Positions 2,664-32,948 of a stretch of DNA of 32,948 bases are shown one piece after another. The stretch's first letter is position 1; each line of letters begins with the position of its first letter. A model generated the notes under the pieces. It saw only the letters and a program-made list of their open reading frames with translations, was not told where the DNA came from and ran no database searches. The DNA comes from Muribaculaceae bacterium Zag1 (lineage in GTDB: Bacteria; Bacteroidota; Bacteroidia; Bacteroidales; Muribaculaceae): assembly GCA_002633115.1 (NCBI GenBank), contig NWBJ01000007.1, positions 1 through 32,948 of the forward strand, given 5' to 3'. The translations under genes were made by a program, and so were the position numbers.

Positions 2664-2705
2664 AAACCATAAGAGGGGCTCGACAAGGAGCCCCTCTTAT
2701 GGTTT
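2664..2705 (+). terminator. Strong intrinsic terminator
   Basis: A perfect 18-bp stem (2664-2681 with 2688-2705) and a six-base loop GACAAG, followed by TATTTATT. It closes the exported-protein gene. It also shows that an ATG at 2699, which lies inside the stem, is not the start of the next gene. Confidence 0.85.
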
Positions 2706-2742
2706 ATTTATTGGGGATTTTGGCCATAAAAAACCAATATAA

Positions 2743-2774
2743 TTTGAGTAGGTGGGAGAAATTCGCTAAATTTG
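2743..2774 (+). promoter_or_regulatory. Bacteroidetes-type promoter
   Basis: TTTG at 2743-2746, a 20-nt spacer, then TAAATTTG at 2767-2774: a full match to the -33/-7 consensus of the Bacteroidetes housekeeping sigma factor. Transcription should start around 2780, which places the start codon of the next gene at 2798. Confidence 0.75.
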
Positions 2775-2797
2775 CCATCGATAAAAAACGATGTGCC

Positions 2798-3751: not shown

Positions 3752-3756
3752 TGGGG

Positions 3757-5556
3757 TCAAGCTCTGAAACCCATTGGCTGTCGCATTGGCTTGGCAGCGG
3801 AGGGCGTTGGAGCCGGAATGTCGGCCTCCAATACCATGCTTAGGTCATTGGCCGTAGGCGATGCCATGGTGGCGATGCGATTGGCCATATTGGGGATGAT
3901 TTGGGTCTCGATGATGTTCATCACATGCCGCGCATTGCCAAATTCTTTGTCGCGATGCTCATAATCGTGGTCGAGCAATTGGGATAGAGCCACTTGCGCA
4001 CCATCAGTGAGGATGTAGCTGTTGGCGCAGAAGTAATTCTGGGCAATCTCCATCAGTTCGTCAGGCCCATAATCCTCAAATCGATAGATGTTTGACGATG
4101 GGATGCGCGAGCGCAATCCCGGATTGGCGTCAAACATCTTGAGCATCGGCTCGGTGTAGCCAGCCATGATGAGCATCCAGTCGCGCCGTTCGGGGTCGGC
4201 GAGGGCCGTGAGCAGATAATTGATCACATCGCGTCCCGGGTCTTTGGGGTCGGACTCGACATACAGCTGATAGGCCTCGTCGATGAATAGGATTCCGCCC
4301 TCGGCCTCCTCCAGGGCCTTTGTCACCTTTTCGGCCGGTGAGCCATAGTAGATGCCGAGCAATTGCGAGCGCTCGGTGACCACTACATGGCCCTTTGAGA
4401 GCACTCCTGCCTTGCGCAGTTCCTCGCCCATGATTTTGGCAACTGTGGTTTTGCCAGTGCCGGGCGAACCGAGAAACATCGAGTGGAGCGGCGGAATGAC
4501 AGTAGGCAGGCACTGCTCGCGCCTGAGCTTGAAAAAGTGCATGAGAGCCATGTAATTCTTGACCTTGCTCTTCACCTCATCAAGGCCGACCATGCGGTCG
4601 AGGCGGCTTTGTGGCTGCTCTTGCAGAAACTTATCGACCAGTTGGTCAAATTCTTTTGAGGTCTCCTCCATTTTCTTCAAGCGCTCCTCCACCATCACGC
4701 AGCCTAAGGCTGGGATATAGTCGCGGATGCGCTCGATGCCCCCGCCACAGAATATGCCGTACTCCACATCGTCGGTGCCAAACACTATTCCGGCCACTCC
4801 GTAGCCAAAAATCTGGAGCTCAGCGTAAATTGGACCAGTGATATCCTTGGCACTGTCGACAGTGCAGTGCGCCTCGATTTGTTTGAGAGTCTCATGGTCA
4901 TCTTCATACACGCTAAGCAGGCGGCATCGTTGGCTCCATCGCTCGCCATACGCATTGGTGAATTGCATCCACATTTCGGGGAGGGTCTTTGGGGTCGAGG
5001 GGAGAGGATCAAGCAAGAAGATTACCGTATATTCTCTGTCATCGTCATAGATTACCGATTTGTATTCGAGGGTGGGTTCTTCCTTGTCGCGCAGCCAAGC
5101 CTGGATGGGTTGCGCCACTCGGTAGGGGGTCATCGGGGTCAGGAAGCTGAGCTCCTTCATATCCAAAAGTTCTTCTTTGCCTTTTGGCCCGTATTTGATC
5201 AGCACAGAATAGGAGCCAACGCTAAGGGTGCCTCGCTTCAGCCATAGGTCTACGCGGGGCTGTATCGGCCCATCCCATGGGTTGACTCTTACGGTGAGTT
5301 GTTCCCAAGCCAGGGCCTGGGAGGGGTCGTCCAGCTTGACCAGCTCGACCTTCAGTTTTATCAGGCCTCCATCGTCGCCCCACCCATCGGGGGAGTGGAG
5401 GGTGAACGTCACATCTACCCATTCGGTGTTGCCGAGCAGGGGGAAGTCGGTGCGGTCATCAAAATGATTGTAACCAGGAAATTCATGGGAAATGATGCTC
5501 GTAGCATCAGCTGGGCGCACCTTAAGGTCGGTGCACCTAAGATTCATTTTTTTCAT
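3757..5556 (-). CDS. CbxX/SpoVK-type AAA+ ATPase with long unassigned N-terminal region
   Basis: A 599-residue protein. The AAA+ module (about 320-570) is of the CbbX/CfqX/SpoVK type: Walker A GSPGTGKTT at 363-371, Walker B ILFIDEAY at 422-429, arginine finger region GLRSRIP at about 480-486, and a sensor-2-like GNARHV at 540-545. Such ATPases remodel protein or nucleoprotein complexes. Residues 1-280 are rich in beta-strand pattern and look like two sandwich domains, perhaps for substrate recognition; I know no family for them. A Pro/Ala-rich tail ends the protein. There is no signal peptide, so it should be cytoplasmic. The promoter lies about 480 bp upstream, giving an unusually long leader with a 20-bp inverted repeat. 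No partner gene shares its strand nearby, so the substrate is unknown. Confidence 0.85.
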   Translation of the reverse strand: MKKMNLRCTDLKVRPADATSIISHEFPGYNHFDDRTDFPLLGNTEWVDVTFTLHSPDGWGDDGGLIKLKVELVKLDDPSQALAWEQLTVRVNPWDGPIQPRVDLWLKRGTLSVGSYSVLIKYGPKGKEELLDMKELSFLTPMTPYRVAQPIQAWLRDKEEPTLEYKSVIYDDDREYTVIFLLDPLPSTPKTLPEMWMQFTNAYGERWSQRCRLLSVYEDDHETLKQIEAHCTVDSAKDITGPIYAELQIFGYGVAGIVFGTDDVEYGIFCGGGIERIRDYIPALGCVMVEERLKKMEETSKEFDQLVDKFLQEQPQSRLDRMVGLDEVKSKVKNYMALMHFFKLRREQCLPTVIPPLHSMFLGSPGTGKTTVAKIMGEELRKAGVLSKGHVVVTERSQLLGIYYGSPAEKVTKALEEAEGGILFIDEAYQLYVESDPKDPGRDVINYLLTALADPERRDWMLIMAGYTEPMLKMFDANPGLRSRIPSSNIYRFEDYGPDELMEIAQNYFCANSYILTDGAQVALSQLLDHDYEHRDKEFGNARHVMNIIETQIIPNMANRIATMASPTANDLSMVLEADIPAPTPSAAKPMRQPMGFRA

Positions 5557-5576
5557 AAACCAAGTAAAGTGTAAAG

Positions 5577-5693
5577 TATAAGTGATAAGTGATAAGTGAT
5601 AAGTTAACCATCCGGATGGTATTGTAGGTTAAGGCATAAGTTATTAATGATGATGGCCAATCCGGATGGCTACCTTATCACTTATCACTTATA
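5577..5693. repeat. Inverted repeat cluster in the AAA+ gene leader
   Basis: The 20-mer TATAAGTGATAAGTGATAAG at 5577-5596 is repeated in perfect inversion at 5674-5693. The left arm continues the TGATAAG unit. Between the arms lie a perfect 14-bp palindrome, ACCATCCGGATGGT (607-620 of this kilobase), and a second ATCCGGATGG core at 660-669. The rest of the 5557-6109 gap holds a short GCACCG/CGGTGC hairpin (5725-5739) and no gene. Confidence 0.8.
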
Positions 5694-6032
5694 CCTTATC
5701 CCTTTCTCCAGCATGTCAAAGAGCGCACCGATTCGGTGCCCGGGCCGTTGGCGTCAGAGCATAGCAATGACGCAAGCGGGGCGAATCGCTCGGAATCGGA
5801 TTGTCGATGCTGGTGGTTGGCTTATGCCTATAGGTCAAGCCCTCGCCGTCGCAGCGAGCAATCGATTGATTGATTTGACTTGTCTATCAGCATATTGCTA
5901 TAGGTTTAGGTGTAAGTGATAAGTGAATAGGTGGCCTCTAGGCCTTCCCTATCAACTTCCTTTTTTTCTCTTTCTTGGTTTAACCTTTAACTTTTTACTT
6001 TTAACTTTATTGGTTTGATTCATAATCTGTCG

Positions 6033-6064
6033 CAAAGTTAATTCTTTTTCCCCAATTTTCCAAA
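6033..6064 (-). promoter_or_regulatory. Promoter of the CbxX-type ATPase gene
   Basis: On the minus strand, TTTG (6061-6064), a 20-nt spacer, and TAACTTTG (6033-6040). It sits between the end of the RloB-like gene and the AAA+ gene and predicts a transcript start near 6027, hence a leader of roughly 470 nt. Confidence 0.65.
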
Positions 6065-6109
6065 AAAAAATTTCATCTACCAAGAACTGTGAAACTGAGA
6101 GTTTTTCTA

Positions 6110-6727
6110 TCATATTTCCGGGAGTTCTCCTATCAGTTGTGATAACATGGAGCCAATTTCAGAGTAGGTGTGCATTCTTCCCTCTTTAGATTTGCTAATT
6201 AAAGATTTATGGGCATTCTTTATAGCTTTCGATAAGTCTCCACCGTTCTTTATAAAATGGGAATGCAATGGATTTTTCTTAAAGAAGTCTTGAGTTTTCT
6301 CATAACTACAGTAATGACGCAATACTTCCACTATTTTTTCGCATGAGTCAAATACCGCTGTGGTATACTGAAAATAATAAAGGAAGAAGAGTTCGGTGCA
6401 TCGCTCTGTTTCGATTATGTATACTCGGCAGTCAATTCCTTTCTTTGGATTCTTATGATGGCGATTGTATTTAGTCTTGAAAAGACTGTATTTTTTGGCC
6501 TCGGTCTTATTGTTCTTGTTGTCCATATCAATGAGGCAGTATACTTGAGAGTAACCTCCATCAATGGCTCTGTCTATCATCTTCGCCATCTCATCCAAAC
6601 TACTATGCTTAGGGAGCCTTGGCTGCATATTAAGGATTTGGGGAAAATGATTCTTGAGGGAGGCCATGTAATAATACTCCGTTTCCCCTTCGCCAATTAC
6701 CATAATGGCTTCACGCTGAGTGCCCAT
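6110..6727 (-). CDS. RloB-like TOPRIM-family protein (AbiLii type)
   Basis: A 205-residue protein with the RloB/TOPRIM signature. GEGETEYYY at 12-20 holds the conserved glutamate motif after a beta strand, LIDMDN at 65-70 supplies the acidic DxD motif, and ETERCTELFFLYYF at 106-119 matches the RloB segment normally of the form NPxFExWLLLHF. TOPRIM domains of this kind bind metal and act on nucleic acids in OLD-like nucleases. The gene starts one base after the stop of the ATPase gene, the same arrangement as RloA-RloB and AbiLi-AbiLii abortive-infection pairs. I therefore read the two as one anti-phage cassette. Assignment to the family is good; defence activity here is inferred. Confidence 0.82.
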   Translation of the reverse strand: MGTQREAIMVIGEGETEYYYMASLKNHFPQILNMQPRLPKHSSLDEMAKMIDRAIDGGYSQVYCLIDMDNKNNKTEAKKYSLFKTKYNRHHKNPKKGIDCRVYIIETERCTELFFLYYFQYTTAVFDSCEKIVEVLRHYCSYEKTQDFFKKNPLHSHFIKNGGDLSKAIKNAHKSLISKSKEGRMHTYSEIGSMLSQLIGELPEI

Positions 6728-6728
6728 A

Positions 6729-8006
6729 CTATGATTCGATTAAGGTAGATTTCAACATGGGGCGACATCCAATGCGGCCTGCCCTATAGGCTTTGTATAG
6801 AGATAAATTTTTGTGGATGCCGAAACTGTCGGCGCGTTGATAGAGGGAAGAAGCTGTGTCTGAATCCTTCTCCACAAACCATACAGTATATCGATTCTCA
6901 TCTATGAAATCTTCGTCCAAGAGTTGCAACTCTTGAGATGTGAAAATCAGTTGCGACTGTTCCGAATTGGTCAAGAAGAAAATAAGATAGAAGACCAAGA
7001 GCTCATAATGTAGATTTTGCTCAATCTCATCGAGCATATACACATGGGAGCCATTTATGAGTCGGTATAGGAATTTCAATTCGCCTAAGAAACTAAGGGT
7101 GCCCGCAGATTGCTCCGAAAGAGGAATCTCAAATTCTCCGCTTGAGGAACTATGGGTGAAGATTATGTCCTCTATCTTTTCCGAAAGCAATTGCATCTTC
7201 AAGGGCTCTGACAGAGTAGGATCGTTCTCAATCTTCTTCCTCATTTGAGGTGAAATCTCTCGCACTTGCTCTCGCACCTCAAATCCGAGAATGTTCACAT
7301 CGGCCTTGTCCAGCATCTGCTTGAAGAAGGCATAAGACCGAGCATCTTCCCGAATGTCTTTAAGATATTTGACCAAGGAGAAATCCCTTTCGTCCCCGTC
7401 AACTTGATGAACATGCGCCTCAATCCATTTATACAGATTCCTTAATGCCGTGGGTTGAGCCATGGGATTGAGTTTACCCAAAGTTGAAAGTACGGTGTGA
7501 TTATTCAAAGTGTTGTCTATCAAGGAAGTTTTCTCCTTGGAAGTTAGCTTTAAACTCTGCCCAAAGATAATTGAAGCGGCCTCGTTGCCTCCCACAAATT
7601 TTCTGTCGTAAATAACCGACTTATGGCCATTGGGAAAATAAAGGAGCTCTTCGCGCAGTATGACATCTGGGGTAAAACTGACTTCATAATCATATCGTAT
7701 GCCGTCGGCATAGAAAGAAACCCCCAGCCGCATGGGCAGATTTGATGCCAAGGCAAAAGGCTTACGGGCCCTCACTTTCTCCCCCAATTTAAGACAGGGC
7801 CTGTAAAGGAGATCAAACACGTTTTCTAATGCAAAGAGCATATTGCTCTTGCCCGATGCGTTTGGTCCATATAGGATGCCAAGCTTACTAATTCGCTCCT
7901 TCCCTATGGATACGGTCAATGAGGGTTCACCGCTTCGCGTCACAAACGACATGCCTTGGCGACCCTTAATCGATAAATAGTTCTCAACCCAAAATTCACG
8001 TATCAT
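6729..8006 (-). CDS. AAA15/ABC-type ATPase, RloA/AbiLi-like
   Basis: A 425-residue ATPase of the SMC/ABC-like AAA15/AAA21 group. It opens with the family's MIREFWVENYLSIKG start. It has Walker A GPNASGKS at 47-54, an ABC-signature-like segment LSEQSAGT at 296-303, and Walker B VYMLDEIEQNLH at 322-333, followed by FTSQELQLLD where a switch histidine is often found. This family partners with RloB proteins in RloAB and AbiL phage-defence systems and with other toxic effectors elsewhere. The RloB-like gene follows after a one-base gap, so translation is probably coupled. The promoter lies at 8051-8082. Its -33 region lies inside one arm of a 51-bp inverted repeat, so this cassette borders the rearrangement-prone segment to its right. 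Confidence 0.85.
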   Translation of the reverse strand: MIREFWVENYLSIKGRQGMSFVTRSGEPSLTVSIGKERISKLGILYGPNASGKSNMLFALENVFDLLYRPCLKLGEKVRARKPFALASNLPMRLGVSFYADGIRYDYEVSFTPDVILREELLYFPNGHKSVIYDRKFVGGNEAASIIFGQSLKLTSKEKTSLIDNTLNNHTVLSTLGKLNPMAQPTALRNLYKWIEAHVHQVDGDERDFSLVKYLKDIREDARSYAFFKQMLDKADVNILGFEVREQVREISPQMRKKIENDPTLSEPLKMQLLSEKIEDIIFTHSSSSGEFEIPLSEQSAGTLSFLGELKFLYRLINGSHVYMLDEIEQNLHYELLVFYLIFFLTNSEQSQLIFTSQELQLLDEDFIDENRYTVWFVEKDSDTASSLYQRADSFGIHKNLSLYKAYRAGRIGCRPMLKSTLIES

Positions 8007-17866: not shown

Positions 17867-18934
17867 ATGAATATCAAGATAGACATAGCGCAACTGCTGC
17901 GCATCCTGCACGATACCCCAGCCGACCAGAACATAATGCTATCTGGCGCCCACGGCATCGGCAAGTCAGAAATCGTCACCCAATATTTCACCGAGCACGG
18001 CAAGCGAGTAGTCACCCTATTCCTTGGCCAGATGAGCGACCCAGGCGATCTGATCGGTCTCCCCGACAAATCGGAAGGGCGCACTGTCTTTCTCCCACCC
18101 TATTGGTGGCCCATCGATGGCGAACCGATAGTGCTATTCCTCGACGAACTCAATCGCGCTCGTCCCGAGTTGCTGCAGACAGTGATGGACCTCACCCTCA
18201 ACCGCAAGCTGGCTGGTCGTCCCTTGCCAGCTGGCAGCCAAGTGATTGCCGCAATCAACGAGGGCGACCAATACCAACTCACCGACCTTGACCCAGCCCT
18301 GGTGTCGCGATTCAACATCTACCGCTTTGAGCCATCGCCCGAGGAATGGATAATATGGGCAAAAAAGAATGAGCTCGACGACCGCGTAGTGGAATTCATC
18401 GCCAACAACAAAGCTTGGCTCGATTGCAACCCCAAAAACAAGGTCATCGACACCGGCATCGACAAGCAGCCCGATCGCCGCGCTTGGAAGCGAGTATCCG
18501 ACATGCTCAAAGGCAAGCCTAACCTGGAGAAAGAAGACACTCGCCTGCTCGCCGGAGTGGTGGGCATTGCCGCAGCCCACAAATTCATGGAAGAACTCCC
18601 CAATGGCAAGAAAATATCAGGAGCTGACTTGCTCAACAACTACGACTGGTACATCATCCAAGCCATCGCTCTCCCAATCCACGAGAGCTCGATGCTCAAC
18701 GAAGACATATTCCAATACCTCCAGACCACCAACATCACCAATCCAGCCACAATCGGTCACAACCTCTCGGCTTATGTAAAAGAACTCGCCTCCAACAACA
18801 AAGGCGAAGCCTTGGCATCGTTCGCCTCAAATGTCACCAGCGGATACTACAAAAAAGCCATTACCTTCATCACGGCTTTCGCTCCCGACATCCTGCCTCT
18901 GCTGATGAAATACATTTCGAGCTTCAAGAAATGA
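17867..18934 (+). CDS. MoxR-family AAA+ ATPase
   Basis: A 355-residue AAA+ ATPase of the MoxR/AAA_5 type. It has Walker A GAHGIGKSE at 27-35, the family segment SDPGDLIGLPD at about 57-67, Walker B LFLDELNRA at 90-98, sensor 1 in AAINEGDQY at 128-136, and an arginine finger in LVSRF at 145-149. The rest (about 155-355) is helical. MoxR ATPases work as chaperones with von Willebrand A (VWA) proteins. Here the next gene encodes one, and the two overlap by four bases (ATGA at 18931-18934), so they are translated together and probably act as one complex in the cytoplasm. The target is unknown. Confidence 0.88.
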   Translation: MNIKIDIAQLLRILHDTPADQNIMLSGAHGIGKSEIVTQYFTEHGKRVVTLFLGQMSDPGDLIGLPDKSEGRTVFLPPYWWPIDGEPIVLFLDELNRARPELLQTVMDLTLNRKLAGRPLPAGSQVIAAINEGDQYQLTDLDPALVSRFNIYRFEPSPEEWIIWAKKNELDDRVVEFIANNKAWLDCNPKNKVIDTGIDKQPDRRAWKRVSDMLKGKPNLEKEDTRLLAGVVGIAAAHKFMEELPNGKKISGADLLNNYDWYIIQAIALPIHESSMLNEDIFQYLQTTNITNPATIGHNLSAYVKELASNNKGEALASFASNVTSGYYKKAITFITAFAPDILPLLMKYISSFKK

Positions 18935-21998: not shown

Positions 21999-22460
21999 TC
22001 AGCCCTTCACTATATCGAGTATTTGCTGAGCGTGCTCCTTGGTCTTGATTTGCTTAGGCTGGAAGATGTGGGTGATCACGCCATTCTCGTCGACCAGATA
22101 GGTTGTGCGCAGAGTGCCCATAGTCTTCTTGCCATAGTTGTTTTTCTCGCCCCAGGCTCCGAGGGCTTGCAGCAGCGCGGTATCGGTGTCAGCGATGAGC
22201 GGGAAGTTAAGCTCATGCTTCTCGATAAATTTCTTGTGGCTGGCAGCAGAGTCTTTGCTCACGCCCAACACCTCGTATCCGGCCTCGCGTAGGGCCTCGA
22301 TATTGTCGCGCATCGACTGTGCCTCAGCGGTGCACCCCGGGGTATTGTCCTTGGGATACACATACAGCACCAACTTCTTGCCAGCGTAGTCGCTGGCCTT
22401 AATCTCGCGTCCGTCTTGGTCTAAGCCCAGTACCTCGGGCAGTTTGTCTCCTATTTCCAT
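21999..22460 (-). CDS. bcp: Bcp/PrxQ-type peroxiredoxin, apparently 1-Cys
   Basis: A 153-residue protein from the ATG at 22460; an upstream in-frame ATG at 22496 lies before the -7 box (22484-22491) and is rejected. It is a complete thioredoxin-fold peroxiredoxin of the AhpC/TSA class: YPKDNTPGCTAEAQ at 35-48 holds the peroxidatic Cys43 with its Thr/Pro partners, and LRTTYLVDENGVI follows. The usual resolving cysteine of PrxQ/Bcp, five residues later, is Gln48, and no other cysteine exists in the protein. It must therefore be recycled by an outside thiol. It reduces hydrogen peroxide and organic hydroperoxides in the cytoplasm. It heads a two-gene operon with the helicase. Confidence 0.9.
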   Translation of the reverse strand: MEIGDKLPEVLGLDQDGREIKASDYAGKKLVLYVYPKDNTPGCTAEAQSMRDNIEALREAGYEVLGVSKDSAASHKKFIEKHELNFPLIADTDTALLQALGAWGEKNNYGKKTMGTLRTTYLVDENGVITHIFQPKQIKTKEHAQQILDIVKG

Positions 22461-22483
22461 ATTCAGTTTTTTTCGTGAAGTTG

Positions 22484-22491
22484 CAAATTTA
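22484..22491 (-). promoter_or_regulatory. -7 element of the peroxiredoxin-helicase operon
   Basis: Minus-strand TAAATTTG, 23 bp before the ATG at 22460. No TTTG element is found at the expected spacing. Confidence 0.5.
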
Positions 22492-22635
22492 CACAAAATC
22501 TTTTACATTCCACACCCCTCCCCCAATAAAAAATTTCATATAGCGAGAGACACCCTGAGGGTAATGAAGTGTCATTTTATCAAAATCACCACAGAAATAG
22601 ATAAAATAGTATCATTAAATTCTCTATTTTAGCCT

Positions 22636-22643
22636 TAACTTTG
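22636..22643 (+). promoter_or_regulatory. -7 element of the PUL
   Basis: TAACTTTG, 51 bp before the first gene of the PUL. There is no TTTG at the -33 position, as expected if an activator is needed. The PUL genes that follow are all on the plus strand with short gaps and probably form one operon. Confidence 0.55.
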
Positions 22644-22694
22644 TATCGTACAAAAAATATCCAAAACTAATCTACATATCACAATTAAATCTGC

Positions 22695-24071
22695 ATGGAA
22701 CTCTTACGAATCCTTAAATCTCGATTCTGGTTGCTGACAGTCATGCTCCTGTGGGCCCTGTCGGCTGCCGCGCAGTCGACAGTCACCGGCACCGTGTTCG
22801 ACCCTACGGGCGAACCTGTGATTGGTGCCTCAGTGACCGAGAAAGGCCAGACCATGGGTGTCCCCACCGACATCGATGGCCGTTTCACTATCAAAGTCTC
22901 AAATCTCAAATCAGCCGTGCTCGTAGTCAGATATGTAGGCATGGACACCAAGGAGGTGCCAGTCAATGGCAAAACCTCGATTGACATCACTCTCTCAGAC
23001 TCAAGCGTTGCCCTCGATGAGGTTGTGGTCGTTGGCTACGGCACACAGAAACGCTCTGACATCACCGGCTCGGTGGCCTCGCTCTCTGAGGATCAGATGC
23101 GCCAAACCATCGTGACCAACGCCGACCAGATGCTGCAAGGCAAGGTGGCCGGCGTGCAAGTAACCCAAAACTCTGGCGCACCGGGCGGCGCAACATCAGT
23201 GCGCATCCGTGGCGCAAGTTCGCTCAATTCATCAAACGAACCCCTCTACATCATCGACGGCGTACCTATGTCGGGCAACAATGAGATCGGAGGTTTTGAC
23301 TGGATGGGTGGCACCAACGGCCAGACCACAGTCAACCCTCTCGCCGCTATCGCCCCCTCCGACATCGTGAGCATCGACGTGCTCAAGGATGCCTCGGCCT
23401 GCGCAATCTATGGTGCTGCTGGCGCCAACGGCGTGGTGATGGTTACTACTCGCCGTGGTTCGGCTGGTCAGAGCAATATCACTTATGACGGCTACGTGGC
23501 CTGGCAGACTACAGCCAAGCGCCTTGACATGATGAACCTGCGCCAATACGCTCAATATCAGCAGCAACTGCTGAGCGAGGGCATCCTCAACAGCACCACC
23601 TTCGATACAACTTATGCCGATGCTTCACTGCTCGGCGAAGGCACCGACTGGCAAGACGAAGTGTTCCGCACCGCGTTCATGCAGAGCCACCAAGTGGGCG
23701 TATCGGGCGGTAACGACAAGACCACCTACGCCATCTCGGGCGGCTGGATGGAGCAAGAGGGTATTATCATCGGGTCAGACTTCACCCGATTCAACACCCG
23801 ATTCAACATCGACAACAATTTCAACAAATACATCAAAATCGGCGGTTCGCTCGCCTATACTCGCACCGATGAGACTATCACCCGCAACGACGGCTCTGAC
23901 GGCGTAATCATGCAAGCCATGACTATGATGCCATCTGTGCCGGTGCGCGACTTCGATGGCAACTGGGCCGGCCCCAGCACTGTCAACGGTTCATCGACCT
24001 GGAACCCCGTAGCCCTGGCCCTGCAGACCAACAACACTCTCTTGACAACACTCTCTTGCGCCAACGCATAA
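22695..24071 (+). CDS. SusC-like TonB-dependent transporter, N-terminal part (frameshifted)
   Basis: The first 458 codons of a SusC-family outer-membrane transporter. A signal peptide (to about residue 26, ALSAAAQ) is followed by a carboxypeptidase-like regulatory domain (about 28-105), the SusC signature DEVVVVGYGTQKRSDITGSV (108-127) and the plug domain (QMLQGKVAGVQV, IRGASSLNSSNEPLYIIDGV). The barrel begins near 260. The frame then runs into a second copy of ACAACACTCTCTTG (24031-24058) and ends as TLSCANA plus stop. From 22695 to 25891 is 3197 bp; less one 14-bp copy this is 3183 bp, exactly 1061 codons including the stop. The expected fused sequence QTNNTLLRQRIMGNF is normal for SusC. 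The gene is disrupted as sequenced. Confidence 0.9.
   Translation: MELLRILKSRFWLLTVMLLWALSAAAQSTVTGTVFDPTGEPVIGASVTEKGQTMGVPTDIDGRFTIKVSNLKSAVLVVRYVGMDTKEVPVNGKTSIDITLSDSSVALDEVVVVGYGTQKRSDITGSVASLSEDQMRQTIVTNADQMLQGKVAGVQVTQNSGAPGGATSVRIRGASSLNSSNEPLYIIDGVPMSGNNEIGGFDWMGGTNGQTTVNPLAAIAPSDIVSIDVLKDASACAIYGAAGANGVVMVTTRRGSAGQSNITYDGYVAWQTTAKRLDMMNLRQYAQYQQQLLSEGILNSTTFDTTYADASLLGEGTDWQDEVFRTAFMQSHQVGVSGGNDKTTYAISGGWMEQEGIIIGSDFTRFNTRFNIDNNFNKYIKIGGSLAYTRTDETITRNDGSDGVIMQAMTMMPSVPVRDFDGNWAGPSTVNGSSTWNPVALALQTNNTLLTTLSCANA
24031..24058 (+). repeat. Exact 14-bp tandem duplication that frameshifts SusC
   Basis: ACAACACTCTCTTG at 24031-24044 and again at 24045-24058. Deleting either copy joins the two SusC reading frames. 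The stop created by the shift (TAA at 24069-24071) overlaps an ATG of the downstream frame (24071-24073). Confidence 0.95.
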
Positions 24072-25891
24072 TGGGCAATTTCTACCTCTCGGTCGATTTC
24101 CTCAAGCATTTCACTTTCCGTGCCGAATACGCATTTGACGCATCGCAGAATCAAAACAAGAGCTACATCCCCCGGTATGAGTTCGGCCTCGTCTCCAACG
24201 ACATCAACCAGATGATGCAGCGCGAAGACCACTCATTCTATTGGATGCAAAAGGATTATGTTACCTATCACCAGACATTCAACAAAGTCCACGATGTGAC
24301 CATCATGGCTGGTTTTGAGGCCTCAAAGTCAACCTGGAACGGCACCCAGCTGATCAAGAAGAATTTCACCACCGATGATATCTTTGTGCTTGGCGAGGAT
24401 GGCGAATTTGTGAGCAACTCAGGCTGGAAAGACGCTGCCTCCACCGCCTCGGTATTCGGGCGCCTCAACTACGGTTTCGATTCGCGCTACCTGCTCACCG
24501 CTACCCTGCGCGCCGACGGTTCATCAAAGTTCGGCCCGTCAAATAAATGGGGTTGTTTCCCATCAGCCGCTCTTGCTTGGCGCATCAGCGAGGAATCATT
24601 CGCGCGCAACGTCACCTGGCTCAACAACTTGAAGCTGCGCCTCGGCTACGGTCAAGTTGGTAATAGCAACATCGACACCTATCGCTACGCCTCAGCTATG
24701 ACCACAATGCTTACTCCCAACGGCACTGCTTATTTCCCTGAAAACCTCTCCAACCCCAAACTCAAATGGGAGGCCTCGGAGCAGTACAACGCCGGTATCG
24801 ACTTTTCAGCATTTGACAATCGCGTAGAGTTTACCGTCGATGTTTACAAAAAGCAGACCAAAGACCTGCTCATGCAAGTCTTCACCCCATCGCACATCTC
24901 CAACAACGAATGGGGCACAATCCAAAATCCCTATGCCAATATCGGCAAGACCGAAAACAAAGGTATTGACGTGCAAATCAACCTGCGTCCGGTGGTCACC
25001 AAGGATTTCTTCTGGCAATCAGCCATCACCCTCTCTCATAACAAAAACAAGGTTGTTGCCCTCAACGATGACACCCAGGTGCTGTACGGAGCTGTCGACT
25101 GGTACGCTTCATTCCAGACTGTGTCAATGTTCAAGGTCGGCGAGGCTATGGGCGTATTCTACGGCTATGAAACCGAAGGCCTGTTTGAAAACGAAGCCGA
25201 CATCCTCAGCCATGCTACTCAGACTGGCGGTTCGACCCCCTACGCCAACAAGATTGACAAAGACTCAGGCGCTTGGGTTGGCGACATCAAATTCAAGGAC
25301 CAAAACGGCGACGGCGTGATCGACGAGAGCGACCAAGTGGTGATTGGCGACCCCAACCCCGACTTGACATTCGGCTGGACTAACACCTTCACCTACAAAG
25401 GCTGGGAACTCAACATCGGCCTGACCGGAGTGATCGGAGGCGACATCCTCAACTGGGCACGCTACCGCACCGAGGGCCTCTGCTCAATCTGGGACAACCA
25501 AGCCACCAGCGTGCTCAACCGTGCTCAACTCGGATATTTCAATCCCGAGGGCTCGACCTCTGATATCAGCAATGTTTACCTGGCTTGCTTCTCATCGCTC
25601 GACGGCAACGGCAACAACCGCATGAGCGACCGCTGGATTGAAGATGGCTCTTACTTGCGTATCCAAAACATTTCGCTTGCCTACAACTTCCCCACCAAGT
25701 GGCTCAAGAAATGCTATCTGCAGCGCGCCAAGCTGTATGTCAATGTGCAAAACGTGTACACATTCACCAAATACTCGGGCTATGACCCCGAAATCGGCGC
25801 ATACAACCAGAGCGCTCTGCTCCAAAACATCGACCGAGGCCGCTACCCCACCCCTCGCACCTACACCCTGGGTCTCAACCTCGCTTTCTAA
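24056..25891 (+). CDS. SusC-like transporter, C-terminal barrel part (frameshifted)
   Basis: The remaining 611 codons of the SusC gene, comprising most of the 22-strand barrel, with typical segments such as GFEASKSTWNGTQLI, ATLRADGSSKFG, RLGYGQVGNSNID and WNDN-like IGDPNPDLTFGWTNTF. It ends with the terminal strand TYTLGLNLAF, whose final Phe is the usual outer-membrane assembly signal. The nominal start is TTG at 24056; the first ATG is at 24071 and overlaps the stop of the upstream frame. This half has no signal peptide, so even if translated by coupling it should not reach the outer membrane. It is best read as the second half of a single gene. Confidence 0.88.
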   Translation: MRQRIMGNFYLSVDFLKHFTFRAEYAFDASQNQNKSYIPRYEFGLVSNDINQMMQREDHSFYWMQKDYVTYHQTFNKVHDVTIMAGFEASKSTWNGTQLIKKNFTTDDIFVLGEDGEFVSNSGWKDAASTASVFGRLNYGFDSRYLLTATLRADGSSKFGPSNKWGCFPSAALAWRISEESFARNVTWLNNLKLRLGYGQVGNSNIDTYRYASAMTTMLTPNGTAYFPENLSNPKLKWEASEQYNAGIDFSAFDNRVEFTVDVYKKQTKDLLMQVFTPSHISNNEWGTIQNPYANIGKTENKGIDVQINLRPVVTKDFFWQSAITLSHNKNKVVALNDDTQVLYGAVDWYASFQTVSMFKVGEAMGVFYGYETEGLFENEADILSHATQTGGSTPYANKIDKDSGAWVGDIKFKDQNGDGVIDESDQVVIGDPNPDLTFGWTNTFTYKGWELNIGLTGVIGGDILNWARYRTEGLCSIWDNQATSVLNRAQLGYFNPEGSTSDISNVYLACFSSLDGNGNNRMSDRWIEDGSYLRIQNISLAYNFPTKWLKKCYLQRAKLYVNVQNVYTFTKYSGYDPEIGAYNQSALLQNIDRGRYPTPRTYTLGLNLAF

Positions 25892-25898
25892 CATGAAA

Positions 25899-25918
25899 AA
25901 TGAAAAGTGAAAAATGAA
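25899..25918 (+). repeat. Copy of the AATGAAAAGTG repeat at the SusD start
   Basis: These 20 bases are identical to 32838-32857, past the end of the GH26 gene. The ATG of the SusD gene (25914-25916) lies inside the repeat. Confidence 0.85.
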
Positions 25919-27602
25919 AAATTCCAAGATATATAAGATTATGGGGATTGGAGCAGCCTTGGCTTTCGGCTTGAGCAGCTGCAACGATTTCCTCACCATC
26001 GGCCCTGAGGACCAGCTGGTGCAAGACACCTACTATTCCTCGGCCGAAATGCTCCGAAACAACACCATGGTGCTCTACGCATCCAAGGCTTGGAGCAATT
26101 TCCACATGAATTTCCAGTGGAAACTCGATATGATCAACGGCGACATGTTTTACACCTACGATGCCGAGGGCCAATGGTTCTTTGGCTCGTACACTCCCCT
26201 CAACACCTACATCAACGAGGGCTGGAAGGGCCTCTACAACGTGATTGCCTTCGCCAACTCAGTCATCAACGATATGCCTGGCAACTGCACCGGCACTGTC
26301 ACCCAAGACGATATCGACAAGGCTATCGCCGAGGCTCGTTGCGTGCGCGGATTCTGCTATTACATGATAGCCGAAATATGGCATGACGCCCCCATCGTGT
26401 ACAACAACACCGAAAACATCACCAACAACGACATCGACCTGCCTCGCAATACCCAGAAGAGCATCTACCAATTTGCCCTCGAGGATCTCAACTACGCTGA
26501 GGAATACCTGCCAGAGACCGATACCGACAGCTACCGCTGCACCAAGCAGACTGCTCGCGCATTTCGCGCAAAGCTGCTCCTGACCATGGCCTCGCATAGT
26601 GACTACGGCTATGACCGAGCCTCGCTATACCAGCAAGCAGCCGATGATGCCATGGCTGTGATGGATGCCAACAATTGGCTCACCGACAATAACTTCTCTA
26701 CCCTATTTGATGTAGAGAGCAACAATGGTCCCGAATCAATCTTCGCCATCCAGTGCGCCGTGCAGGGCTACAGTTACGGCAACGCTCGCAATGTGGCATG
26801 GAGCCGTTCGTCAGTAATTGCCGACCAGACCTGGGGAGCCGGCAAGGGCCCGACAATCGCCTTGCAGAAACTGTATGACCCGACTGACAAGCGCCGCATG
26901 TGGACATATATGACCAATGGCGACTATTATCCCAATCTCGCCAAGGCCGATGGCGGGTACACCTACTATTACATCAATCGTGCCGACGATGGCACAGTCA
27001 TCGAGGACCGCAACGAGATGAACGCCCATATCAAGAAATACATCATCGGCAAGAGCGCTGACTGCAACGGCAACGTGGGCCTGAACCAAGACGCTGCCAA
27101 CAATATCTACCTGATGCGTCTCGCCGACATGTACCTCACCTATGCCGAGGCTGTGATGGGCACTGCCAACTCTACCAGCGACCCTACTGCCATCCAACGC
27201 TACAATGCTGTGCGCGATCGCGCCGGACTCACCCAAGTGTCATCAATAACCTACGAGGATTTGATGAAAGAGAGGCTCAGAGAGTTTGCATTTGAGAGCC
27301 AGTCATGGTTTGACACTCAGCGCCTGCGTTATCGCGAAGGCGACCAAATGGCCCTCAATTGGATCAACACCGGTTACGGCACTGGCTACAACCGCGCTTC
27401 GCAATACAACCAAATCTACGGCACCGACCAAGCTGATGAGAACAAGGAGAGCTCTTACCAGATCGTGCAAAGCAAGGCCGAATACGCCCAGTATGATCCC
27501 ATCATCCTCACTGCCGACGCATTTGTCTGCCCCATCCCGGCAGCAGTGTCGACATCATCGCCAAAGCTCTCAGAGGATCCAGTGGATTTTTACTCAGAAT
27601 AG
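25914..27602 (+). CDS. SusD/RagB-family glycan-binding lipoprotein
   Basis: A 562-residue SusD-family protein. The signal peptide ends in the lipobox GLSSC with Cys23 as the lipid anchor, followed by NDFLTIGPEDQ, the usual SusD mature start. The middle is rich in TPR-like helices (QSKYQFALEDLNYAEEYLP-type segments). The C-terminal part has the hallmark IYLMRLADMYLTYAEAV and RERLREFAFESQSWFDTQRLR (approximate), which pack against SusC. It sits at the cell surface as the lid of the SusC transporter and binds the incoming glycan. It starts 22 bp after the SusC stop, inside a repeat copy. If SusC is really off, this protein would lack its partner. Confidence 0.92.
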   Translation: MKNSKIYKIMGIGAALAFGLSSCNDFLTIGPEDQLVQDTYYSSAEMLRNNTMVLYASKAWSNFHMNFQWKLDMINGDMFYTYDAEGQWFFGSYTPLNTYINEGWKGLYNVIAFANSVINDMPGNCTGTVTQDDIDKAIAEARCVRGFCYYMIAEIWHDAPIVYNNTENITNNDIDLPRNTQKSIYQFALEDLNYAEEYLPETDTDSYRCTKQTARAFRAKLLLTMASHSDYGYDRASLYQQAADDAMAVMDANNWLTDNNFSTLFDVESNNGPESIFAIQCAVQGYSYGNARNVAWSRSSVIADQTWGAGKGPTIALQKLYDPTDKRRMWTYMTNGDYYPNLAKADGGYTYYYINRADDGTVIEDRNEMNAHIKKYIIGKSADCNGNVGLNQDAANNIYLMRLADMYLTYAEAVMGTANSTSDPTAIQRYNAVRDRAGLTQVSSITYEDLMKERLREFAFESQSWFDTQRLRYREGDQMALNWINTGYGTGYNRASQYNQIYGTDQADENKESSYQIVQSKAEYAQYDPIILTADAFVCPIPAAVSTSSPKLSEDPVDFYSE

Positions 27603-27676: not shown

Positions 27677-29002
27677 ATGAAGATATTCAAATATATAAGC
27701 CTGGGCTTGGTGGTGGCTGGAGCAATGGCAGTGGCCAGTTGCTCAGACGAGACCGATGCCAAGGCCGACCGCGGGGCTACCCCCGAAATCAAATATGTGC
27801 GCGACTGCGACCCGGCTAAGTCTGACTCGCTGATCGTAAAAGCCTCGCTCGGCTCGCATATATGCTTTGTGGGCAATAATCTGGGCGACGTACAGCAGGT
27901 ATGGTTCAACGACCAGAAGTGCAAACTCAACCCCACGATGGTGACAAGCCATACAATCATCTGCGATATACCCTCGGTGATTCCCGGCGAGGTCAGCAAC
28001 GTGGCTCGCTTCATCACCAGCACTGGCATCGAGGTAGAATATCCATTTGAGGTAGTAGTGCCAGGGCCCAGAATCGACCAGATGTCGCTCGAGTATGCAC
28101 CAGTGGGTTCGACCGTCACTTTCACTGGCGCTTATTTTGTCGATGATCCCAATGTGCCTTTCGTGGTAGAGTTCACCGGCGGCGCTGAGGCTGAGTTCAA
28201 GAATCTGACCCAAACCTCGTTTGATGCCGTAGTGCCCGAGGGCGCACAACCTGGTCCCATCACTGTGACCACCATCTACGGCTCTACAACCTCTACACTT
28301 GAATATATGGATACTCGCGGCCTGATGTTCGACTTTGATGGTGTCACTGGCCTGGGCAACCACGGCTGGCACGATGCTCCTATCGAGACCGACGAAACCG
28401 CTATCTCAGGCAACTTCGTTCGCCTTGGCGCTGATGGCGTCACCATGAGCGCTGACGGCAGTTGGGATGATAGCCACTTCGCATTTGAATATTGGGCTGG
28501 CTCCTGGAATTCTCCCACCGACTATCCCGAGCGCGAAGGCATCCGCCTCTTCGACCTCGTTGATTTCACCAACTGGAAAGAGATGGGCCTCAAATTCGAG
28601 TTGTGTGTGCCATCATCCAATCCCTGGCAAGCCGGAGCGATGCAAGTAATCTTTGCCGGTACTAACCTGGTATCGATGGGCTACGAGGGCAAAGACATCT
28701 ATGGCAACTCAGTGGCTGGATGCAACAACACCTTCTTCCAAAACGACTCCAATCCCGGCTATCCTCGCGGCATCTACCGTCCTTGGTCAGCCTCAACAGC
28801 TTTTGACACTGGCGATGAATGGATCACAGTGACTATGCCGTTCACCGAGTTCCTCTACGATATGGATGGTGCCAATGCTACCCAGGGCCTTACCGTCGAC
28901 AGTTTCGCCTCGCTCACAATATTTGTGGTAAGCGGCGGTGTGACCGGTGTTGACTGCCAGCCTATCATCAAGATTGACAATATACGCGCAGTTAAACTTT
29001 AA
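27677..29002 (+). CDS. Surface glycan-binding lipoprotein (SGBP-B-like)
   Basis: A 441-residue lipoprotein: signal peptide with lipobox AVASC, Cys22 as anchor. Two IPT/TIG-like beta-sandwich domains follow (about 35-120 and 125-210; for example PRIDQMSLEYAPVGSTVTFTG with a closing TVTTIYG strand). The C-terminal domain (about 215-441) contains GLMFDFDG, GNHGWH, REGIRLFDLVDFTNWKEM and FASLTIFVVSG...IKIDNIRAVKL. It is of the kind found at the C-terminus of surface glycan-binding proteins from hemicellulose PULs. It should bind polysaccharide outside the cell and pass it to the neighbouring enzyme and SusCD. It lies 74 bp after SusD and 18 bp before the next lipoprotein gene. Confidence 0.8.
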   Translation: MKIFKYISLGLVVAGAMAVASCSDETDAKADRGATPEIKYVRDCDPAKSDSLIVKASLGSHICFVGNNLGDVQQVWFNDQKCKLNPTMVTSHTIICDIPSVIPGEVSNVARFITSTGIEVEYPFEVVVPGPRIDQMSLEYAPVGSTVTFTGAYFVDDPNVPFVVEFTGGAEAEFKNLTQTSFDAVVPEGAQPGPITVTTIYGSTTSTLEYMDTRGLMFDFDGVTGLGNHGWHDAPIETDETAISGNFVRLGADGVTMSADGSWDDSHFAFEYWAGSWNSPTDYPEREGIRLFDLVDFTNWKEMGLKFELCVPSSNPWQAGAMQVIFAGTNLVSMGYEGKDIYGNSVAGCNNTFFQNDSNPGYPRGIYRPWSASTAFDTGDEWITVTMPFTEFLYDMDGANATQGLTVDSFASLTIFVVSGGVTGVDCQPIIKIDNIRAVKL

Positions 29003-29020: not shown

Positions 29021-31351
29021 ATGACACTCTATCATAATTTCCGCTCAATCGCCTACGCTGTGGCTCTGGGGATGATGTGCTCTGCCCCGGTAATGCTCAC
29101 ATCGTGCGATGACGACGACAATGAATTTGACACCAATCAATATCTCGGCGGCATCAACCTCAACTCATTCGGTCCAAGTCCCGTGGCTCGTGGCGGCGAA
29201 CTCCGTTTCCTCGGCAGCGGCATGGACCAAATCACCAAAATCAACATCCCCGGCTCAGCCGACATCACCGATATCCAGCGCATCAGCTCTGAGGAGATTC
29301 GCATCACCGTGCCTCAGGATGCTGAGGAGGGATACGTAACCCTCTATTACTCTGGCGGCACTATCACCACCAAGACACTGCTCACCTATAGCGAGCCAAT
29401 CTCAATCGAGGGTATCTCTCCGCTGAGCGTAAAGCCCGGAGCCACTATCACCATCTCGGGCGAATATCTCAACCTAATGTCGCAGGTTTGCTTCTCATTT
29501 ATCGAGGGAGGCGACAGCGTAAATGTCAATGCTGATGCCTTCATCACCCACGAGCGCAAGCAAATCGTCGTGGTTGTGCCCGAGGAGGCAGTAAGCGGTC
29601 CGGTTGCCGTGAGCGATGCCGCTGAGGTCCCCAATATGGTTGTCAGCGAGGAGGCGATTGCTGTAACATTGCCGTCGGTGACTGCTCCCGTTGACCTCAC
29701 TGATGCTATTCCAGGCTCAGCAATCAATATCACTGGTCAAGATTTCGATTTGGTACGCAACGTACGCATGCCCAATGGCGCTGATGTAGAATTTACCTAC
29801 ACCGTAGCCGGCGATACCGAGACCCTGACTTTCACCCTCCCCGAGGATGTAACCGATGGTGAAATCGTAGCTCTGCCAGCATCAGGGGTTGAAGTCATCA
29901 TCGCCACTATCGGCGTGGTAGTGCCTTCCAACATCTCCGCCACCCCTGCTGCTAACCTGCGCGCTGGCGATGTAATCGCTATCTCGGGCGAGAACATGGA
30001 TCAAGTGGTCAGCGTCACCTTCCCCAATGTCGAAGAGGCACAAGCCCTGATATCATCCTCAGCCACCAAGATTGAGGTAGCCTTCCCCGAGATGGCTCAG
30101 TCAGGTCAGGCAGTGCTTAACCTGCGCAGCGGCAAGTCAGTCGAAATATTTCTGACTACTGCCAAACCACTGGCCACTGGCTTCAGCGCCAATCCTGTTT
30201 CAGCTGCTGGCGAACTCACCATTGCTGGCGAAAACCTTGACCTGGTAGTATCAGTAGTGTTTGGAGGCGACTACACAGTTGAGGTTGAGAATGCCGAATC
30301 CGCGTCTCTGACACTGACGGTGCCAGCTACCGCTGAGAGCGGAGCCTTGACCCTCAACATGGCTAATGGCGAATACACGACCACCGAATCGCTGACCATC
30401 GAGAAACCAGCTTGCGCTTTCATTCCCGAGCTGCCCGATGGGCAATTCACCGCTGGCGACCTCTTTATCGTATCGTTAGAGAATGCCGATGTCCTCACCA
30501 ACGTGCTTGTCAATGGCAGTGCCGTACAATACATCATCAACAATGGCACTCTCTACATCTCCCTGCCATCGTCGTGCGGTTCTGGCACCGTGATAACCCT
30601 TGTATCATCTAATGGCGAGATTTCATACACCATTGATGTCATTCCGGCTACACACGTTGAGATTATCGCCTATAACGATGGTCCGCGCGACCTGGGCAGT
30701 TGGGCTGGCGAAAACGATGGAGGCGCATTCAGAATCTACAAGAGCGTCTTCGAGGGTGTGCCTTCTGGCTCGATGCTGATATTCCATGTGGCTCCTTATG
30801 GCGACTACTCGCAAATCCAGGTGAATGATGCCAACTGGGGACAATTCGAGATTCTCCAATTCGACACCTCATACACAACTGTTGAATGGGAACTCACAGC
30901 CGAGCGCCTCAACCATATCCTCACTACCAATGATGGCTGGAGCGAAACTGGCTTGGTAATCCAAGGCTGCAACACCATTATCAGCAAAGTCACTATCGAA
31001 TACGAGCAATCGGCCGAAGAGACTATTTGGAACGATGGCTGGACCTGTTCGGGCTGGAATGGCAATCAAGACTTGGCTTGGGGCGGCTATGACTGGAGCA
31101 GTTGCAAGGCCGGACAGACCCTGAGATTCTACATGACTCCGACTGTGGCCGATGGCGACTGGTGGTGCATCTCGCTGCGCCATGGCAACAACTGGGCCAA
31201 TATCCCCGGCATCCCCACTCAATATGACTCGCCCGAGGGCGGTCTGCTTGCGCTGGAGCTCACTGCCGATATCATCGCCGACCTGGTCGACAACGGAGGC
31301 TTGGTAATCACTGGCGACGGCTTTATCCTCAACAAGATTACCATCGAGTGA
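29021..31351 (+). CDS. Large IPT/TIG-repeat surface lipoprotein with two C-terminal carbohydrate-binding-like modules
   Basis: A 776-residue lipoprotein: signal peptide with lipobox VMLTSC, Cys29, followed by an acidic DDDDNEFD stretch that fits the surface-export signal of Bacteroidetes lipoproteins. Five or six IPT/TIG-like domains of about 80 residues run from about 50 to 540, each with a G-ITISGEYL/GQDFDL/GENMDQV-type motif. The last 230 residues form two modules of about 115 residues with a shared plan (start W/G-rich, LIFHV or LRFYM strand, AERLNHIL or TADIIADL helix, GLVIQG or GLVITG, then KVTIE or KITIE). Exposed tryptophans suggest sugar binding. I infer a rod that holds two binding modules away from the cell. 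Confidence 0.8.
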   Translation: MTLYHNFRSIAYAVALGMMCSAPVMLTSCDDDDNEFDTNQYLGGINLNSFGPSPVARGGELRFLGSGMDQITKINIPGSADITDIQRISSEEIRITVPQDAEEGYVTLYYSGGTITTKTLLTYSEPISIEGISPLSVKPGATITISGEYLNLMSQVCFSFIEGGDSVNVNADAFITHERKQIVVVVPEEAVSGPVAVSDAAEVPNMVVSEEAIAVTLPSVTAPVDLTDAIPGSAINITGQDFDLVRNVRMPNGADVEFTYTVAGDTETLTFTLPEDVTDGEIVALPASGVEVIIATIGVVVPSNISATPAANLRAGDVIAISGENMDQVVSVTFPNVEEAQALISSSATKIEVAFPEMAQSGQAVLNLRSGKSVEIFLTTAKPLATGFSANPVSAAGELTIAGENLDLVVSVVFGGDYTVEVENAESASLTLTVPATAESGALTLNMANGEYTTTESLTIEKPACAFIPELPDGQFTAGDLFIVSLENADVLTNVLVNGSAVQYIINNGTLYISLPSSCGSGTVITLVSSNGEISYTIDVIPATHVEIIAYNDGPRDLGSWAGENDGGAFRIYKSVFEGVPSGSMLIFHVAPYGDYSQIQVNDANWGQFEILQFDTSYTTVEWELTAERLNHILTTNDGWSETGLVIQGCNTIISKVTIEYEQSAEETIWNDGWTCSGWNGNQDLAWGGYDWSSCKAGQTLRFYMTPTVADGDWWCISLRHGNNWANIPGIPTQYDSPEGGLLALELTADIIADLVDNGGLVITGDGFILNKITIE

Positions 31352-31418: not shown

Positions 31419-32831
31419 ATGAAAAATCATTATAAATATCTTTTCGCACTGCCAGCATTGGCCCTGATGATGGCAGCTTGCGACGACGATGAGCCAAAGA
31501 TCAACTTCGTTGAGACCTCGGGTATAGTAGCCAAAGTTACGGCTACCTCGATAGCCCAAGGCCAGGAAGTTGACTATGACGCAGTGACCTCGGTCACTAT
31601 CACCTATGATTCAGAGGTTGCTCTCAGCACCCTGGTCACCCCCACCCTCAATGGCGAAAGCGCATCTTGGGCTTATGCCACCGACACGGATGGCAATTCA
31701 GTGTTCTCACAAGCCGTGGTAGCGCTCTCGCTGAATCCGGGCTGCAGCTATGTCCTCTCGATTCCCGAGAGGGCTGCTGCAGGTGTCAACTCGGGCGTGT
31801 ATGCCGAGGCGTATACTCTCAACTTCACCACCAAGGCCAAAGCAACCACACCGACCAATATTCAAAGCTTGACCAACTCATCAGCCACTCAGGCCGCTCA
31901 AAACCTCTACTCCTATCTGGTAGACAATTACGGTTCTAAGATGCTGACTGGCACCATGGGTGCTGTGGCATGGGCTACCGACTACTACGACTTTATCACT
32001 GTCCAAGCCGGAGCCGCTCCCAAGGTAATCGGTTTTGACTATATCCATCTCGCCTCCTCGCCCGCCAACTGGATTGACTATGGCGACATCACCCCCGTGA
32101 AGAATGCTACCGATGCCGGAGCAATCGCCACTATGTCGTGGCACTGGAATGTGCCCACCGAGCAAGGCGGTTCCAATCTGGTGTACTCAACCGACTGCGG
32201 CGACTTCAGTCCGAGCAACGTATTGGTTTCTGGCACTTGGGAAAACGAAGTGGCCGAGGCTGACATTGCCAAACTTGCAAGTTATCTGCAGCTTCTCCAA
32301 GATGCTGGCATAGCAATACTCTGGCGCCCGATGCACGAGGCCGCTGGCGACTACACCTGGGGCCCATGGTTCTGGTGGGGCAAAGATGGAGTAGATGTAA
32401 CTAAGCAACTTTGGATTTATCTCCACGATAAGTTGGTCAATGACTACGGCCTGAACAACCTGATCTGGGTATGGACAATGCAAACCACCGATGCTGGCAA
32501 CCTGGCCACTGTGGCTCAACTGCAGAGCGCTTATCCTGGTGATGATTATGTCGATATCGTAGGCATAGACCTCTATCCCTCAGAGGCGCTCACCGACCAA
32601 TCAGCATCCTATCAGCTGGCCCACGAGGCAGTAGATGGCAAGAAGATGGTGGCTCTGAGCGAGTGCGGCAACCTCATCGACCCGGCCCAAGCCTATGCCA
32701 ACAGCGCTCTCTGGAGCTATTTCATGCAATGGTACGACCTTGACGACAACGGCACCTTCGGGTTCTACAACTACTCTGGCCCCGACCAGTGGCAGACTGT
32801 CGTCTCCAGCCCCTACGTAATTAATAGGTAA
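31419..32831 (+). CDS. GH26 endo-beta-1,4-mannanase lipoprotein
   Basis: A 470-residue lipoprotein: lipobox MMAAC with Cys21, then DDDEP, a likely surface-export signal. Residues about 30-138 form an Ig-like (Big_5-type) domain. The catalytic barrel (about 150-470) has the GH26 landmarks: MSWHWN at 239-244, WRPMHEA at 302-308 with acid/base Glu307, WVWTMQ at 350-355, DIVGIDLYP at 379-387, and ALSECGN at 412-418 with nucleophile Glu415. GH26 enzymes mainly cut beta-1,4-mannans with retention. With the surface location, the enzyme should release oligosaccharides for SusCD. It is the only glycoside hydrolase in the window; the others expected in a mannan locus may lie beyond the right edge. Confidence 0.92.
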   Translation: MKNHYKYLFALPALALMMAACDDDEPKINFVETSGIVAKVTATSIAQGQEVDYDAVTSVTITYDSEVALSTLVTPTLNGESASWAYATDTDGNSVFSQAVVALSLNPGCSYVLSIPERAAAGVNSGVYAEAYTLNFTTKAKATTPTNIQSLTNSSATQAAQNLYSYLVDNYGSKMLTGTMGAVAWATDYYDFITVQAGAAPKVIGFDYIHLASSPANWIDYGDITPVKNATDAGAIATMSWHWNVPTEQGGSNLVYSTDCGDFSPSNVLVSGTWENEVAEADIAKLASYLQLLQDAGIAILWRPMHEAAGDYTWGPWFWWGKDGVDVTKQLWIYLHDKLVNDYGLNNLIWVWTMQTTDAGNLATVAQLQSAYPGDDYVDIVGIDLYPSEALTDQSASYQLAHEAVDGKKMVALSECGNLIDPAQAYANSALWSYFMQWYDLDDNGTFGFYNYSGPDQWQTVVSSPYVINR

Positions 32832-32834
32832 ATG

Positions 32835-32926
32835 AAGAATGAAAAGTGAAAAATGAAGAGTGAAAAATTCCTCTCATTCTTCTCTATTCCATAATCAATA
32901 TTTTTCATTTTTCACTTTTCATTCTT
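32835..32926. repeat. 23-bp perfect inverted repeat after GH26
   Basis: The left arm (32835-32857, core AATGAAAAGTG) and the right arm (32904-32926, core CACTTTTCATT) are perfect inverses with a 46-bp spacer. The left arm shares 20 bases with the SusD start region. It could form a hairpin at the end of the transcript. No further gene starts before the window ends. Confidence 0.85.
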
Positions 32927-32948
32927 GAGTCCACTTTAAAAAGTGGCA

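Follow-up and report, generated by a model that had tools for sequence, protein, structure and literature searches.

A 14-base tandem duplication interrupts a susC gene in a predicted beta-mannan utilisation locus of Muribaculaceae bacterium Zag1

Contig NWBJ01000007.1 of Muribaculaceae bacterium Zag1 (assembly GCA_002633115.1), the whole 32,948 nucleotides of which were analysed (hereafter referred to as the window), carries a susC gene divided into two reading frames at a short tandem duplication. A first-pass annotation of the sequence had suggested that this duplication might be an on/off switch for mannan uptake, while noting that a simple mutation or an assembly error would explain it equally well. 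The question raised by this locus is whether the pair of repeats is a device for switching, an ordinary lesion or an artefact. The duplication is a real feature of the assembled sequence; a recent null mutation is the most likely explanation, an assembly error is possible, and there is no sign of an evolved switch, so that the two plainer explanations are judged better than the switch rather than equal to it.

The duplication and the divided gene

The 14-base unit ACAACACTCTCTTG is present on the forward strand in two exact adjoining copies, at positions 24031–24044 and 24045–24058. These positions bear out the first-pass annotation and were recovered independently by Tandem Repeats Finder (24031–24058, period 14, 2.0 copies, 100%). 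With up to two mismatches allowed, the unit matched just these two places in the whole window (shuffling expectation 0.17, and two matches in 0 of 100 shuffles), and no exact 14-base tandem pair appeared among 2000 shuffles of the SusC gene. A search of the whole genome found the exact unit nowhere else; its sole further match at no more than one mismatch was an inexact one on contig C1. When a duplication originates by simple slippage between short repeats that were already present, some bases are usually common to the unit and its flank; here the number of such bases was zero on the left and zero on the right. The site is plain coding sequence with no strong fold (z-score 0.32), and the gene contains no homopolymer of six or more bases and no di- or trinucleotide tract of four or more units. 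A transposon footprint, consisting of two target-site copies left by excision, would fit the lack of shared flanking bases, although neither an element nor a remnant of one was seen. Two other tandem pairs within the gene were rejected as lesions: a 12-base pair at 23783, which is in frame and identical in the sister genome, and a 10-base pair at 25510, which is the product of ordinary codons and at which the sister genome differs by two bases.

The N-terminal piece of the gene (22695–24071, forward strand, 458 amino acids) comprises a carboxypeptidase-regulatory-like domain, the plug and the start of the barrel, aligns with positions 2–406 of the 981 of TIGR04056, and terminates at a TAA shortly 3' of the duplication. 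The C-terminal piece (24056–25891, forward strand, 611 amino acids from a TTG) contains the TonB-dependent barrel and aligns with positions 412–981 of the same model. Both pieces scored above the curated TIGR04056 cut-off of 368 bits (425 and 502 bits, respectively), the SusC signature TIGR04057 was present in the N-terminal piece, and Pfam placed the plug in the first piece and the barrel in the second. The gene thus belongs to the SusC/RagA family of TonB-linked outer membrane proteins, but it is read in two frames with a premature TAA, rather than in a single uninterrupted one. These frames lie two bases apart, which is 14 modulo 3. The full length minus 14 is a multiple of three, corresponding to 1061 codons with the stop (by arithmetic, the sequence itself not having been built), in agreement with the earlier statement that removal of one copy gives a SusC frame of 1060 codons. 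The family sequence is normal on either side of the join, as had also been stated, according to both the alignment of orthologues and the TIGR04056 positions.

An ATG that is in frame with the C-terminal piece overlaps the premature stop (TAATG, 24069–24073, forward strand) and is a possible re-initiation site. The downstream frame is open back to a stop at 23897, so that a ribosomal frameshift within about 170 bases would be formally possible; no slippery heptamer for such a bypass was seen by eye (unscored). The search for copies of this gene on plasmids yielded none, the matches being four Hymenobacter records with 3–7% cover, and no relative was found in the viral contigs scanned.

Relatives, constraint and the age of the break

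The genus was represented by 49 genomes, including that of Zag1, 46 of which gave some match. The gene extended across the site in 12 genomes other than Zag1, with 67 to 91% DNA identity, the other listed matches being short stretches. In the alignment, all 12 of these orthologues had one copy of the unit and an open frame across the site. A wider scan of genome contigs covered 77 loci, obtained from the best 80 of 85 stretches encoding a relative. The two SusC pieces adjoin in 72 of these loci, always in the same frame across the join (72/72), and the remaining five have no N-terminal match. Several of the 77 loci are apparently the same as the 12 orthologues (e.g. L062 and L003), the distant ones, with less than about 45% identity, are more likely to be paralogues and count as weak evidence, and in one locus (L054) the site is followed by a run of N. 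Related genomes, to which the first-pass annotation had looked for a check of the copy number, thus all have a single copy among the orthologues and an uninterrupted frame at every testable locus.

The gene is intact in the sister species (G014, locus L003), which is 91% identical at the DNA level. Relative to window positions 25572–25586, the SusC gene of this species (L003/L142) contains 18 additional bases, inserted in frame. In the comparison with the sister species, dN/dS was 0.020 before the break (443 codons) and 0.031 after it (605 codons), and no further frame-breaking indel was found in the gene. Both pieces are therefore under strong purifying selection relative to this species. When the differences were polarised with the other orthologues, 15 nonsynonymous and 72 synonymous changes fell on the window branch and 8 and 79, respectively, on the sister branch, with 90 more differing sites not assignable to either. 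The nonsynonymous excess on the window branch had a P value of 0.18 for the whole gene; for the C-terminal piece, the nonsynonymous to synonymous counts were 13:45 on the window branch and 5:55 on the sister branch (P = 0.04, uncorrected). In a rough model of the age of the break, with an assumed neutral ratio of 3.0, a loss of constraint for at least 10% of the window branch was rejected (P = 0.005), and a loss for 5% was not. The low dN/dS values, the branch counts and the model together indicate that the break is recent relative to the species split, as the first-pass annotation had thought, and the model, rough as it is, places it in the last tenth of the separate history of this lineage.

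On this evidence, susC, in what is predicted to be a beta-mannan utilisation locus, has probably undergone a recent and ordinary loss-of-function mutation. A 14-base tandem duplication would have arisen in this strain and shifted the frame, with translation terminating a few codons further on. The truncated SusC would retain the plug but lack all except the beginning of the barrel, and is predicted to be a non-working transporter, with transport lost. The second piece would begin inside the mature protein and is predicted not to be exported. Expression of the downstream genes, which are intact, may continue: as the stop overlaps an ATG, ribosomes might re-start there, sparing these genes polar effects. 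Any tandem pair may drop one copy by slippage, and the allele is therefore probably revertible; both the occurrence and the rate of reversion are predictions here, and no published reversion rates for 14-base tandem pairs were found in the literature listings searched.

The surrounding locus and the possibility of an artefact

The genes 3' of susC, all on the forward strand, encode a SusD-family protein (25914–27602, 562 amino acids), a surface glycan-binding protein (27677–29002, 441 amino acids, SGBP_B_XBD and TIG domains), a protein of 776 amino acids with no Pfam match at E 0.001 (29021–31351) and a GH26 protein (31419–32831, 470 amino acids). The 776-residue protein shows a weak similarity to an SGBP-B from a locus for mixed-linkage glucan (PDB 6e57, E 0.00099) and is probably a second glycan-binding protein. 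The best solved relative of the GH26 protein was the GH26 protein 6hf2; the second and third were named aryl-phospho-beta-D-glucosidase BglC by their depositors and were followed by beta-mannanases. An alignment of 11.2 kb with the sister genome (21646–32833) supported the earlier view that the downstream genes of this polysaccharide utilisation locus (PUL) are intact: the duplication was the sole frame-breaking indel within the PUL genes, with the exception of a one-base gap at the last base of the 776-residue gene. Further out-of-frame indels were found outside the PUL, in a second alignment with the sister genome (85% identical). Several are in the UvrD gene, where they lie in divergent stretches and compensate one another, leaving ORFs of 654 and 653 amino acids in the two genomes. 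In an A run near the end of an AAA gene (18850–18856, indel at 18854), the window has six A residues and the sister contig (G014:C86) seven; the additional A fuses the AAA gene and a VWA-like gene into one frame of 738 codons in the sister genome, the two being separate overlapping genes in the window.

The window contig ends 117 bases 3' of the GH26 gene. The other GH26 gene of the genome lies on contig C75, where the order is GH94 (at the start), GH26, GH130, an MFS transporter and an epimerase. In one relative (L035), GH94 is located directly 3' of GH26, and C75 therefore probably continues the locus of the window, although the two contig ends have no exact overlap. The window ends (32830–32948) in A+T-rich short repeats and, by eye, a near reverse complement of the start of C75 (L172, 1–60); it looks as if a long hairpin separating GH26 from GH94 had broken the assembly, and the contig of the sister genome stops no more than about 130 bases away from this point. 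The gene content expected of a beta-mannan locus, namely a SusC/SusD pair together with GH26 and a mannooligosaccharide phosphorylase/epimerase, was recovered in this way, with SusD, the surface glycan-binding protein and GH26 in the window, and GH94, GH26, GH130, the MFS transporter and the epimerase on C75. It supports mannan as the predicted substrate and, to that extent, this part of the earlier proposal. At the other end of the window, genes for a YhcG-type nuclease (DUF1016), an AAA protein, RloB and an AAA_21 (AbiEii-like) protein lie near one another (284–8006), in what may be a defence region, judging from the family names.

It is possible, if unlikely, that the duplication is an artefact of assembly or sequencing, and that the strain itself carries a single copy in a functional gene, contigs or reads overlapping by 14 bases having been joined end to end. 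Such a join would leave no bases common to the duplication and its flanks, as found here, and would be in keeping with a draft genome of 137 contigs and a SusC gene that is otherwise well conserved. Against this, the site is plain coding sequence that does not fold strongly, the exact unit is absent from the rest of the genome, and the PUL genes have no other frame-breaking indel in the sister alignment apart from the gap at the last base of the 776-residue gene. Also against an artefact is the outcome of a crude scan for tandem pairs with units of 9–60 bases, which covered 20 stretches amounting to 400 kb, or 9% of the genome: seven exact tandem pairs were flagged as possible gene breaks, but six have 9-base units, which are unable to shift the frame, and the seventh, a 14-base pair at C70:57401, sits between two ORFs and splits no gene. 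In the same sample, the 9-base unit CACGGATTA or near variants, together with the reverse complement, formed short arrays in several contigs (e.g. C116 8254–8387, C117 40750–41890 and C45 18621–76131), and 7/14-base units such as TTGACTTTTGACTC and AATGAAAAATGAAT likewise recurred across the contigs.

Broken SusC genes, reversion and known systems

The Zag1 genome contains 31 SusC genes over the cut-off, two of which are broken: the gene at 22695–25891 and one on C21 with an in-frame TAG (L136 in G000:C21, a single codon around 3748–3750, minus strand). The metagenome-assembled genome (MAG) of the sister species contains 29, five of which are broken, those on C152, C2, C70 and C61 being split and that on C95 having a TAA (L171). 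In the C152 gene (L167, G014:C152:4500–8400), a run of G at about 1357–1377 has eight residues, versus six in the Zag1 orthologue L116; this is either a homopolymer of the phase-variation type or a sequencing error. The genes on C2 (L168), C70 (L169) and C61 (L170) have gained or lost single bases, one of these lesions lying within a stretch of about 30 bases that poorly matches the orthologue. Six other SusC genes of the two genomes have therefore been broken likewise, by other kinds of mutation. Four further genomes provided 60 SusC genes with two clearly broken (G045:C24 with a TGA, and G044:C7, split); G043:C33, without an N-terminal match, was not counted among the broken genes, and a single gene may have been entered twice as G044:C53 and C54, the scores of which are equal. 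The control genes were RND transporters (8 in Zag1 and 9 in the sister MAG), GH2 genes (14 and 14) and tRNA synthetases (PF00133; 4 and 4), with 24 additional RND transporters from the four further genomes. Only 1 of these 77 was broken, a GH2 gene of the sister MAG, in a count that could miss some lesions, because the GH2 and synthetase models matched only part of the protein. Fisher's tests gave P = 0.065 for Zag1 and the sister MAG (7/60 SusC genes versus 1/53 controls), P = 0.09 for all genomes (9/120 versus 1/77) and P = 0.11 for SusC versus RND transporters (9/120 versus 0/41). SusC loss may thus be commoner than loss of other long genes, on evidence that is suggestive but not significant, and errors in one MAG may lie behind the excess.

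These counts bear on a further explanation, in which loss of the transporter was favoured temporarily, through loss of a phage receptor or in the absence of mannan, with the tandem pair easing its return. We consider this improbable. A low long-term dN/dS combined with a fresh null allele is what an adaptive-reversion model for gut bacteria predicts, as set out in the available text of PMC11379459, and at least 10 independent reversions of a stop codon in an O-antigen gene of Burkholderia dolosa occurred in patients, according to the excerpt available from PMC12287342; the broken SusC genes listed above would also fit. However, the excess of broken genes is not significant, two of the three control families were matched over only part of the protein, and five of the nine broken SusC genes come from one fragmented MAG in which a one-base homopolymer difference also fuses two unrelated genes, as sequencing errors would. 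Also improbable is the boldest version of this idea, a natural instance of adaptive reversion in a gut commensal, in which the pair would be a readily reversed null allele of a glycan receptor, sweeping and reverting inside hosts, with one- and two-copy cells coexisting. No similar case appeared in the available portions of the literature on within-host evolution of SusC and on SusC as a phage receptor (including PMC8375218).

An evolved contingency locus, in which slippage between the two copies would toggle mannan uptake, is hardly credible, given the lack of any repeat at this position in the relatives examined. Two exact copies of an out-of-frame length do lie within coding sequence, and SusC/SusD genes of Bacteroidales are known to undergo phase variation through a different mechanism, DNA inversion, as described in the part of PMC12632263 available; nevertheless, all 12 orthologues are single-copy, all 72 testable loci are in frame, there are merely two copies, and the gene has no simple tract. 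No tract kept among relatives with a varying copy number was found, and none of the papers listed dealt, by title or abstract opening, with SusC phase variation by tandem repeat in Bacteroides. Inversion by an invertase, which calls for inverted repeats and a recombinase beside the gene, fares no better: positions 22400–24400 contain no inverted repeats other than an imperfect overlapping palindrome inside the gene (24296–24345), and no recombinase family was found by Pfam scan among 26 of the 52 listed ORFs of the window. Nothing suggests a selected switch. The proposed reversion by slippage holds to the extent that any tandem pair can lose a copy, but the mere possibility of back mutation does not amount to a switch. 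There is nothing unusual about the duplication if it is simply a null mutation or arose in assembly, and the gene would then be annotated as a pseudogene. If the allele is real and reverts, the site would be a cheap one at which to watch a gut community lose and regain a surface glycan transporter, as the adaptive-reversion model predicts.

The recent null mutation favoured here resembles other SusC-type null alleles of gut Bacteroidales in being a single fresh lesion in an otherwise conserved gene. It differs in kind from the other six broken genes of the two genomes, which have one two-base change in a G run, three single-base indels and two in-frame stops, the lesion in the window being a 14-base tandem duplication. 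As in slipped-strand phase variation at simple repeats, an out-of-frame change in copy number would toggle the protein. Contingency loci have many short units that are kept over time, whereas the 14-base unit is present twice in the window and once in the relatives examined. Such loci are defined in the accessible part of PMC7911514. The protein family of the window gene is also that of the invertase-driven SusC/SusD phase variation of Bacteroides fragilis. Nakayama-Imaohji reportedly described, in 2009, SusC/SusD phase variation by site-specific inversion in this species. In contrast, the window has only the imperfect palindrome at 24296–24345 and no recombinase among the 26 ORFs scanned. The closest likeness in gene content is with the beta-mannan PUL of Bacteroides ovatus (bacova_02087-97), which includes isomerase, symporter and mannosyl phosphorylase genes in the extract available from PMC5217682. 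The two share SusC, SusD, a surface binding protein, GH26 and the isomerase, symporter and phosphorylase functions, as found on C7 (the window contig) and C75, but the locus described here has no GH36 among the scanned genes, includes a GH94 and has a broken SusC.
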